DNA from: Sneathiellales bacterium
GTDB lineage: Bacteria > Pseudomonadota > Alphaproteobacteria > Minwuiales > Minwuiaceae
Direction of reading: 5' to 3'
Length of the DNA stretch: 50,389 nucleotides
Assembly (NCBI GenBank): GCA_026992315.1
Contig: JALXAG010000161.1
Coordinates: forward strand, 1-50,389
In this document: one piece after another, positions 31,018 to 34,124 of the stretch
Layout: the number at the start of each line of letters is the position of its first letter
How positions within the stretch are numbered: position 1 is the stretch's first letter
The notes under the pieces: generated by a model
Seen by the model: only the letters and a program-made list of their open reading frames with translations
The model's database searches: none
What the model was told of the DNA's origin: nothing
Position numbers and translations under genes: made by a program

Positions 31018-31502
31018 CGATCAAGCGCCTGGGGCTGACCCTGGCTTTTCTGGGCATACTGGCCGGGTTGTCGTCCCTGGCGCTGGCCGAACGCCGCCTT
31101 GCCGATCCCGCGCAGGAGGCCCGAGCCGTGGCCTTGCACAAGACCCTGCGTTGTCTGGTCTGCCAGAACCAGTCAATCCATGATTCCAATGCCTCTCTCG
31201 CCCGCGACCTGCGCCAGATCGTGCGTGAACGCATCGAAGCCGGCGACAGCGACGAGCAGGTCATTCAGTATATTGTCGACCGTTATGGCGACTGGGTGCT
31301 TCTCGATCCGCCCTTCAAGCTGAAGACACTGGCGCTGTGGTTCGGGCCGCTGGCCGTTTTCCTGATCGGAGGAATCGGCATGGTGATCTTTTTGCGTAAT
31401 CAGGGCCGCCGTGCCGCCAGCATGAAAAATGCCGCCCCACCCCTGACAGAGGAAGAGCGTCGGCAGGTGCAGCGTATTATCGAGGAAGGGGACGGCCAAT
31501 GA
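31011..31502 (+). CDS. ccmH: Cytochrome c maturation protein CcmH (CcmL type)
   Basis: A 163-residue periplasmic thiol-redox protein. Signal peptide (1-26), three-helix domain with 'LRCLVCQNQSIHDSNA' (C48 and C51, the redox pair that interacts with apocytochrome c), 'RYGDWVLLDPPF' near 95, and a membrane helix ('FGPLAVFLIGGIGMVIFL', about 108-125) followed by a cytosolic acidic tail. The start overlaps ccmG and the stop overlaps ccmI (ATGA). Confidence 0.95.
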   Translation: MLTIKRLGLTLAFLGILAGLSSLALAERRLADPAQEARAVALHKTLRCLVCQNQSIHDSNASLARDLRQIVRERIEAGDSDEQVIQYIVDRYGDWVLLDPPFKLKTLALWFGPLAVFLIGGIGMVIFLRNQGRRAASMKNAAPPLTEEERRQVQRIIEEGDGQ

Positions 31503-33163
31503 TGACGTTCTGGATTATTGCCGGGCTGCTGACCGTTGCCGTGCTGGTCATGCTGGCCTGGCCGCTGTTCGCCAGCGGGGAGGAATTGCACGACCGGGCC
31601 GAATACGACCTGAAGGTTTATCGCGATCAGCTCAAGGATCTGGATACGGATATCGCCCGCGGTCTGCTGAGCGGCGAGGAAGCCGAAAGCGCCCGCCATG
31701 AGATCGAACGCCGCCTGCTGCGGGTAATGCGCGAACAGGAAGACATCAAAAGCGGCGGCAGTCGCCGTTACAGTACGGCCATGGCGGTATTGCTGATTCT
31801 TGCCGTGCCGGCGGCGGCGCTGGGGCTGTATTTCCTGTGGGGACAGCCCGGCATGATCGGGCACAAGGAAACGATGGCGGACCGGGCCCGCCAGCCAAGC
31901 GCGGAGGAACTGGCGCAGCAACAATCGGTACGCGATATGGTCAATCGCCTGGCTGCCCGGCTGAAGGACAATCCGGACGATTATCGGGGCTGGATCATGC
32001 TCGGCCGCTCCTATCGTGTGCTGCGCGATGCGGCGAATGCGGAAAAGGCCTTCGATACGGCCCGCAAACTGCCTGAAGCCGCCGACGACCCCCTGCCCCA
32101 TATGCAATATGGCGAAGCGGTGGTGATGGTGGCCGAAGGCGTGGTGCCGCCCAAGGCGGTGGAGGCTTTCAAGAAGGCCCTGGCGATCGATCCGAAGAAT
32201 CCGGGGGCCCGTTATTATCTGGCCCTGTGGCGCCGGCAGGCGGGGTATCCCAGGCGGGCCTATGACGAATGGGTGGCGCTGGCCAAGGATTCCCCTGCCG
32301 ATGCCCCCTGGCTGCCGGTGCTGCGCGCGCGCATTGCCGAAGTCGGCAAAGAACTGGGTATGGATGAGGAAAAAGCCCTGGCCGGTCTGCCGGTCCCTGC
32401 AGAGCAGCAGGCCGCAGCCGCGCCGGGGCCCAGTGCCGAGGATATGCGCGCCGCGCAGAATATGAGCCCCGAGGAACGCCAGAAGATGATTCGCTCCATG
32501 GTGCAACGCCTGGCGGACCGTCTGAAGGACAATCCGGACGATTATCAGGGCTGGATGCGTCTGGGCCGGGCCTATCAGGTGTTGGGGGAGGCGGACAAAT
32601 CCAAGGAAGCCTTTGCCCGCGCCGAGGCGCTCAAGGGCCGGGGCGGCGGGGAGGAACAAGCTGCCGCTGCGCCGGGACCCAGCGCCGAGGATATGCGCGC
32701 CGCGCAGGATATGAGCCCCGAGGAACGCCAGAAGCTGATCCGCTCCATGGTGCAGCGCCTGGCGGACCGCATGAAGACCAATCCAAAGGATCACCAGGGC
32801 TGGATGCGTCTGGGCCAGGCCTATGATGTGCTGGGGGAACGGGAAAAGGCGCTCGATGCCTTTGGCCGTGCCGCGGCCCTGCGCCCAGATGACGTCGCCA
32901 GCCAGATGGCCTATGCCCAGGCGATGGTGGAGGCCAGCGATCCCAACGGCCCGCTGCCGCAGGATGCGGTGAAAATCTTCCGCCGTGTTCTCGAATTGCA
33001 GCCGGACAATATGAATGCCTTGTGGTTTGTCGGCATGGCCGATGTGGCGGCAGGCGACAAGGATGCTGCCCGTGAAAAATGGGAACGGATCCTGAAGCGG
33101 CTGGATCCGCAAAGCCGCGAATACGCCATCGTCAAACAACGTATCGCGGAACTCGGTTCCTGA
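31499..33163 (+). CDS. ccmI: CcmI/CycH apocytochrome c chaperone with repeated TPR units
   Basis: A 554-residue protein: N-terminal double-helix membrane module ('FWIIAGLLTVAVLVMLAWPLF' and a second helix near 92-118) enclosing a cytosolic loop with 'VYRDQLKDLDTDIARGLLSGEEAE', then a long TPR region that would bind the apocytochrome C-terminal helix. It is longer than many CcmI because a unit of about 83 residues is tandemly repeated: 'PSAEDMRAAQNMSPEERQKM' with 'MVQRLADRLKDNPDDYQGWM' occurs twice almost identically, and a more diverged copy precedes it. Last gene of the ccm operon. Confidence 0.94.
   Translation: MMTFWIIAGLLTVAVLVMLAWPLFASGEELHDRAEYDLKVYRDQLKDLDTDIARGLLSGEEAESARHEIERRLLRVMREQEDIKSGGSRRYSTAMAVLLILAVPAAALGLYFLWGQPGMIGHKETMADRARQPSAEELAQQQSVRDMVNRLAARLKDNPDDYRGWIMLGRSYRVLRDAANAEKAFDTARKLPEAADDPLPHMQYGEAVVMVAEGVVPPKAVEAFKKALAIDPKNPGARYYLALWRRQAGYPRRAYDEWVALAKDSPADAPWLPVLRARIAEVGKELGMDEEKALAGLPVPAEQQAAAAPGPSAEDMRAAQNMSPEERQKMIRSMVQRLADRLKDNPDDYQGWMRLGRAYQVLGEADKSKEAFARAEALKGRGGGEEQAAAAPGPSAEDMRAAQDMSPEERQKLIRSMVQRLADRMKTNPKDHQGWMRLGQAYDVLGEREKALDAFGRAAALRPDDVASQMAYAQAMVEASDPNGPLPQDAVKIFRRVLELQPDNMNALWFVGMADVAAGDKDAAREKWERILKRLDPQSREYAIVKQRIAELGS
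32411..32880 (+). repeat. In-frame tandem duplication inside ccmI
   Basis: DNA at about 32411-32659 and about 32660-32880 is nearly identical over long stretches, with an offset of 249 bases (83 codons); for example GAGGATATGCGCGCCGCGCA occurs at 32438 and 32687. The copies encode a linker plus a TPR pair. A third, diverged protein-level copy lies at about 31890-32080. Confidence 0.85.
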
Positions 33164-33260
33164 AGACGGCATTTCCTTGACGAATACCGTTTGCGACGGG
33201 CAGTCAGCTTCTGTGAAACAGTTGTCTGGTCGGTGTTTGTGCCGGCAGGCCTGCTTATGG

Positions 33261-33462
33261 CAAAAAAATGCGGAGACACCGGGGGGATGTCTCCGCCTGA
33301 AGCCATTCGACCTAGGTCGAAGGCCCCAAAAGGTATTGCGGCATCTCAAGCTGACCAGGATAATCCCGGGCAGCACTGTGAATAAAGCAAGGAGCGTGCC
33401 AGTTTCCTGTTACCGGTAAATGGCACGAAACAAGGGATGGGGCCAAGGTCTGATTGTTTCGT
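33261..33462 (-). ncRNA. Candidate structured RNA (or structured yciB 3' UTR)
   Basis: The minus strand contains five consecutive helices ending in a terminator: ACGAAACAA/TTGTTTCGT (33462-33425), overlapping and mutually exclusive with CGTGCCA/TGGCACG (33427-33395); CCGGG/CCTGG (33369-33355); a 12-bp stem built on TTCGAC-CTAG-GTCGAA (33327-33299, one bulge); and the terminator stem (33295-33271). Two of these need G-U wobbles that exist only on the minus-strand RNA, so that strand is favoured. A weak promoter (TTGCCA 33480-33475, 16 bases, AACAAT) would give a transcript of roughly 185 nt. No known family recognised. Confidence 0.45.
33262..33295 (-). terminator. Rho-independent terminator
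   Basis: Minus-strand RNA folds CGGAGACA (33295-33288) with TGTCTCCG (33278-33271), then CA and a run of seven T (33268-33262). It would end the yciB operon about 240 bases beyond its stop, or a separate small RNA. Confidence 0.82.
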
Positions 33463-33533
33463 TATGGGACATGTTGGCAAAAAAGCCCACAAACGCCCTA
33501 AATTGACACATATGTATCAGAATGGGGCGGTTG

Positions 33534-34124
33534 TCAGTCGCCTTTGCCTTCAGCTTCCAGGCGTTTGGCCGCCCGCAATATCAGCGGCGTCTGGGCAAGG
33601 CTGAACAGGATGGTCAGCGGCAGAATGCCGAACACCTTGAAGCTGACCCAGATATCGGTGGGATAGGACCGCCAGACATATTCGTTCAGCGCTGCCAGCA
33701 GCACGAAAAAACCGGCCCAGCGCAGGCTCAGGATGCGCCAGCTTTTTTCATCGAGATGCAGCATGTGCCCGAGCACCAGCTTCAGGGCCGAGCGGCCGGC
33801 AATCTGCCCGCCGAGGATCAGCCCGGCAAACAGCAGGTTGACGATGGTCGGCTTGATCTTGATGAAGATCTCATCCTGCAGATAGAGGGTCAGCCCGCCG
33901 AAGAACAGCACGAATACCGCCGTGATCAGCGGCATCGCCGGCAGGCGGCGTTCGGTGACATAGGTGTAGCCGAGGGCGATGACGATCGCCACCATGAAGG
34001 CGGCGGTGGCGGCGTAGATGCCGAATTTGGCATTGACCAGAAAGAAGACCAGCAAGGGGCCGAATTCGGCGGCCAGCCTGGCCATGCTGCCTGCGCCGGA
34101 GGATGTCTTGCGGGCGGGGGTCAT
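33534..34124 (-). CDS. yciB: Inner membrane-spanning protein YciB (septation protein A family)
   Basis: A 196-residue membrane protein with about five hydrophobic segments. 'EFGPLLVFFLVNAKFGIYAATAAFMVA' at 20-46, 'FGGLTLYLQDEIFIKIKPTIVNLLFA' near 95 and 'WRSYPTDIWVSFKVFGILPLT' near 150 are family hallmarks. YciB proteins are linked to cell envelope and division, but their biochemistry is unsettled. Last gene of a minus-strand chain dapF-mtaB-ftsY-yciB; start overlaps the ftsY stop (ATGA). Confidence 0.93.
   Translation of the reverse strand: MTPARKTSSGAGSMARLAAEFGPLLVFFLVNAKFGIYAATAAFMVAIVIALGYTYVTERRLPAMPLITAVFVLFFGGLTLYLQDEIFIKIKPTIVNLLFAGLILGGQIAGRSALKLVLGHMLHLDEKSWRILSLRWAGFFVLLAALNEYVWRSYPTDIWVSFKVFGILPLTILFSLAQTPLILRAAKRLEAEGKGD

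Follow-up and report, generated by a model that had tools for sequence, protein, structure and literature searches.

A candidate sigma-54-dependent small RNA with a C-rich terminator loop between yciB and ccmI of a Sneathiellales bacterium

To our knowledge, the well-characterised small RNAs (sRNAs) that depend on sigma-54 (Qrr, CrcZ and GlmY) come from Gammaproteobacteria. CrcZ and CrcY titrate Hfq/Crc through repeated motifs. The Qrr sRNAs of the Vibrionaceae are sigma-54 dependent, with LuxO or SypG as the activator, and for Qrr1 control by sigma-54 is established (PMC10162802). CrcZ and CrcY of Pseudomonas and Azotobacter are described as sRNAs linked to sigma-54 (PMC6292655). In Helicobacter pylori the C/U-rich terminator loop of RepG binds a G repeat (PMC8295292), and in Xanthomonas the C-rich loops of sX13 act upon G-rich motifs close to sites of translation initiation (PMC3771888).

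Here we analysed a 50,389-nucleotide stretch of DNA from a Sneathiellales bacterium (contig JALXAG010000161.1; hereafter the window, meaning this whole stretch). We favour, with a probability of roughly 0.6, a lineage-specific, sigma-54-dependent sRNA of about 112-115 nt that is encoded on the minus strand and would act in trans by pairing of its C-rich loop, probably together with Hfq. Such an sRNA is probably new and in no catalogued family, though its type of regulator is already known.

A structured minus-strand RNA and its promoter

The candidate RNA sits between the convergent genes yciB and ccmI (Table 1). A sequence-only reading of this locus had described tandem stems that pair best as minus-strand RNA and end in a stem followed by seven T. 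The stems are present and the minus strand is favoured: the RNA read from 33382-33262 has a folding energy of -55.4 kcal/mol (z -5.7), which no shuffle equalled, against -45.2 kcal/mol (z -2.7) for the plus strand of the same segment. The stem at 33355-33369 contains, as described, a G-U pair that becomes a mismatch on the plus strand. Moreover, the 112-nt core (-52.9 kcal/mol) was more stable than 716/716 GC-matched segments that we drew from the window, both strands included. The terminal stem was recovered by a scan for hairpins of at least 8 bp with a loop of 3-9 that end no more than 2 bases from a T6 run; among the hairpins detected in this way, the terminator at 33296-33270 with its T7 is unique in the 50-kb window. 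The core observation, a stable structured RNA on the minus strand, is sound and lies beyond chance level. The U tail would be a likely contact for Hfq.

Table 1. Features of the yciB-ccmI region and of a speculative target in the window.
Feature	Position	Strand	Basis or remark
yciB/ispZ, septation protein A	33534-34124	minus	
ccmI	31499-33163	plus	
Hairpin with T6 trailing yciB, probable yciB terminator	33479-33545	minus	fold z -3.2; upstream of the sRNA promoter
Inverted repeat ACGAAACAA-N20-TTGTTTCGT, 9 bp, DNA	33425-33462	.	centred some 68 bp before the predicted start
Sigma-54 promoter TGGCACG-CTCC-TTGCT (-24/-12), exact consensus	33386-33401	minus	the window's only match without a mismatch
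Predicted small RNA, about 112-115 nt, three hairpins	33262-33376	minus	promoter, fold and terminator
Hairpin P1 (GCUG-CCGGGA-UUA-UCCUGG-CAGC), RNA 5' end	33350-33374	minus	MFE structure and centroid
Hairpin P2 around palindrome UUCGACCUAGGUCGAA	33297-33329	minus	MFE structure and centroid
Terminator hairpin P3, 11 bp, 5-nt C loop (CCCCC)	33270-33296	minus	fold and terminator scan
CCCCCC, proposed pairing site	33281-33286	minus	5/6 C unpaired in the predicted ensemble
Seven T behind the terminator stem, U tail	33262-33268	minus	sequence and terminator scan
GGGGGG, speculative target of the C loop	25592-25597	plus	10 nt before the ccmA start

The RNA is preceded, at the appropriate spacing, by a perfect sigma-54 promoter. 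Genome-wide we identified seven exact TGGCACGN4TTGCW sites, this one included, and each of the remaining six has a plausible ORF start no more than 120 bp downstream (three PEP-CTERM, one flagellin-like and two others). Transcription from sigma-54 promoters usually starts about 12 nt past the C of the -12 element. Placed by this spacing, the start of the sRNA would lie at about 33375 (33374-33377), a position that coincides with the foot of hairpin P1. The sequence-only reading had instead proposed a weak promoter and an RNA of about 185 nt. That sigma-70-like match (9/12, at 33480-33453) is close to chance (1 found vs 0.4 expected), and the length is revised to about 112-115 nt, the sigma-54 start being some 70 nt further downstream.

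Two stems, at 33395-33427 and 33425-33462, had been taken for the alternative states of an RNA switch. Both lie 5' of the predicted start, hence outside the transcript, and as DNA elements they cannot form such a switch. A riboswitch or attenuator was rejected on these grounds and on the nature of the 3' neighbour: the only gene downstream is ccmI in antisense, and the RNA is therefore not the leader of any gene. The sigma-54 promoter makes the finding sharper and easier to test than the switch did. Its -24 element is overlapped by the inverted repeat at 33395-33427; the repeat at 33425-33462 is a candidate activator site. A 9-bp repeat like the latter arises in 1.2% of mononucleotide shuffles. 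It occurs once in the genome; we rejected it as a regulon motif, there being no further good copy.

The same strand and the position directly downstream of yciB, together with the strong terminator that closes the region, would also suit a tandem terminator region in which any RNA is decaying yciB 3' UTR. We regard this as quite unlikely, given that the perfect promoter separates yciB from the hairpins. Moreover, since a hairpin with T6 already stands directly behind yciB, the RNA is probably not the yciB tail. The hairpin behind yciB includes the palindrome TGATACATATGTGTCA (33504-33519), which is either a piece of the yciB terminator or a protein site. Elsewhere in the genome all copies of it carry two mismatches, and as a regulon motif it was rejected for want of a second good copy.

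The RNA and ccmI (stop at 33163) converge across a gap of 99 bp, and the terminator scan found no plus-strand terminator in 33000-33700. This arrangement leaves room for a cis-antisense role, in which the sRNA pairs over its full length with the read-through 3' UTR of the ccm operon and so changes the stability of the ccm mRNA. However, the RNA ends at about 33262, short of ccmI itself, full-length pairing would be slowed by the three stable hairpins, and that ccm transcripts reach the RNA region is an assumption. Action in cis is thus unlikely in our view, and we retain the trans-acting sRNA as the preferred reading.

Family tests, homologue searches and similar layouts elsewhere

The sRNA has no Rfam match at threshold, which together with the fold and the terminator supports the earlier view of a free-standing structured RNA outside the Rfam families. 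The best sub-threshold match was to tfoR (RF02100), which scored 28.7 bits where the gathering score is 70. The likeness to this Vibrio RNA consists of a hairpin followed by a terminator with loop UCCCCCCGG, which the alignment places in both. However, the tfoR model also scores 22-30 bits at unrelated loci, some apparently within genes, in 7/289 alphaproteobacteria; because these scores are comparable, we ascribe the match to a generic likeness of hairpin and C-loop terminator and reject membership of tfoR as chance-level. CcsR1 (RF02791; 16.7 bits, E 0.32, against a gathering score of 65.3) was likewise rejected, as was Qrr, whose Rfam model gave no match even at E 5.

The genomes searched for homologues all came from outside the genus. 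BLASTN against 60 relatives, a search of sigma-54 sites around yciB at other loci of the order and a search of plasmids each returned nothing convincing. A covariance model that spans promoter and RNA found no homologue among 9 genomes from the order or 385 from the class; its best other matches scored 25.5 and 24 bits and on reading lack a sigma-54 promoter. Since this model was built from one sequence, it could miss distant homologues. The lack of a found homologue counts against the sRNA reading, which has no support from conservation or covariation. It would also suit a silent stretch in which the promoter match and the hairpins arose by accident. We consider such a coincidence very unlikely, as an exact promoter, a top-ranked fold and a strong terminator follow each other in the right order and at the right spacing. 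The promoter combined with C5 and T5 at the same spacing occurs at this locus alone among 385 alphaproteobacterial genomes; a reversed control of the pattern gave no match among the listed genomes.

We also scanned a genome collection for TGGCACN5TTGCW followed by C5 and T6 at similar spacing, which yielded at least 117 stretches. Of the matches listed, about 35 fold as RNAs of approximately 93-133 nt that are closed by a final hairpin and leave the C run unpaired, at least in part; predicted ORFs overlap several of these. The candidates form distinct groups that appear unrelated in sequence to the window RNA. A Desulfuromonas-type group comprises at least 11 loci, with an exact promoter and 120-131 bp from there to the T run. 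In the 11 listed, the terminator loop segment UCUCUCCCCC is invariant and two base pairs of the stem differ in both partners. Neighbours, where read, include genes named by eye as ptsP-like and as coding for a 4Fe-4S protein. Two loci of this group were tested against Rfam and had no match. The group is a candidate for a conserved sigma-54-driven sRNA. Further groups listed combine a sigma-54 promoter with an RNA of about 100 nt and C-rich loops; they come from Gammaproteobacteria (three loci), Coriobacteriia/Actinobacteria (two loci) and others (two pairs: L184 and L145; L213 and L136). Some loci of these further groups overlap predicted ORFs.

An Rfam match was absent in all 18 of the 18 analogue loci tested. 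Because the search pattern itself demanded the C run, the analogues show recurrence, not enrichment or common descent with the window RNA. We tentatively suggest, as a possibility that we hold to be doubtful, that they and the window RNA belong to an unrecognised and repeatedly evolved class of sigma-54-driven, free-standing sRNAs with a C-rich terminator loop, which would have many lineage-specific members and span Desulfuromonadales, Gammaproteobacteria, Coriobacteriia and others. If true, such a class would give sigma-54 activators a general route to control mRNAs with G-rich leaders. Recurrence across several phyla, if robust to controls, would tie signalling through sigma-54 to the regulation of such leaders by C loops.

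Candidate activators, mode of action and targets

The genome encodes RpoN, nine sigma-54 enhancer-binding proteins and Hfq, the last on the ntrX contig; the machinery for a sigma-54-dependent sRNA is thus present. PrsR, NtrC, FlbD, PspF and NtrX score above curated cut-offs, whilst one LuxO-like, one AtoC-like and two further NtrC-family proteins fall below them. The LuxO-like protein is a sigma-54 activator in an alphaproteobacterium that reaches 543 bits against a cut-off of 800. On its 7-kb contig we noticed no Qrr-like gene beside it. Five genes for proteins with PEP-CTERM-like tails share a TGTCG...TACA box, and 67-81 bp downstream of it comes a sigma-54 promoter that is exact or has one mismatch. 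This box, which in the PEP-CTERM promoters here reads TGTCG-N8/9-TACA, is likely the PrsR site, and the genome has PrsR. As activator of the sRNA, PrsR was rejected: the matching place upstream of the sRNA holds only TGTC-N10-ACA, an incomplete box.

We propose that an enhancer-binding protein would activate, driven by ATP, the sigma-54 polymerase at 33401-33386, and that the sRNA would be expressed only then. The transcript would run from the foot of P1 to the C-loop terminator and U tail. Its CCCCC(C) loop may then pair in trans with G-rich sequence in or close to ribosome-binding sites; such pairing would alter the translation or stability of the target mRNAs, probably with the help of Hfq. 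In the predicted fold the C-rich loop is unpaired, as in the RepG/sX13-like mode of action.

Within the window, G5 occurs in 2/41 crudely predicted leaders. One of these is the G6 run ahead of ccmA, the gene that opens the adjacent cytochrome c maturation cluster, and the duplex with the C loop is predicted at about -17 kcal/mol. G6 runs number about 18 in the window, and ccmA is for that reason a lead only; that its leader is a target seems improbable to us. Any assignment of targets is weakened by a loop just 5 nt wide and by G runs being common in a GC-rich genome. GGGGGG is scarce in the whole window (25 matches vs 82 expected), and 24/25 matches are on the plus strand.

The predicted RNA also contains the start of a 10-codon frame, MPQYLLGPST from the ATG at 33344, and might be a short mRNA for this or another small peptide, alone or beside a role as sRNA. 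No ribosome-binding site is evident ahead of it, the frame runs into the stable P2, and codon conservation has no relatives for comparison. We consider a coding role highly improbable.

Comparison with described sRNAs

With CrcZ and CrcY the window RNA shares the link to sigma-54 described for them (PMC6292655), and this likeness would allow a protein-titrating RNA that pairs with no mRNA, in the manner of CrcZ/CrcY for Hfq/Crc or of Rsm RNAs for CsrA. Unlike CrcZ and CrcY, however, the window RNA has no evident repeats: neither A-rich nor GGA motifs recur visibly in its sequence, and its C-rich loop is single. Titration of a protein is accordingly very improbable.

Set beside C-loop regulators, the trans-acting sRNA that we prefer resembles RepG in that the C-rich loop of its terminator hairpin is the only evident pairing site. 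For RepG pairing is proven, whereas here it is inferred, and the loop here is C6 with no U stretch; we found no evidence for common descent of the two. Like sX13, the window RNA is a compact hairpin sRNA bearing a C-rich loop. It differs in having one such loop, whereas sX13 has three and is independent of Hfq.

The window RNA differs from the Qrr sRNAs in having no Qrr match in Rfam and in not adjoining a luxO-like gene. The LuxO site TTGCAWWWTGCAA (motif from PMC10162802) was absent from the 180 bp upstream, as read by sequence. It resembles the Qrr sRNAs in being free-standing and of similar size and in the pairing of sigma-54 with an enhancer-binding protein, and its genome also has a LuxO-like protein. 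As an alphaproteobacterial case that brings together a perfect promoter, a terminator of its own and a fold that is blank in Rfam, it is directly testable.
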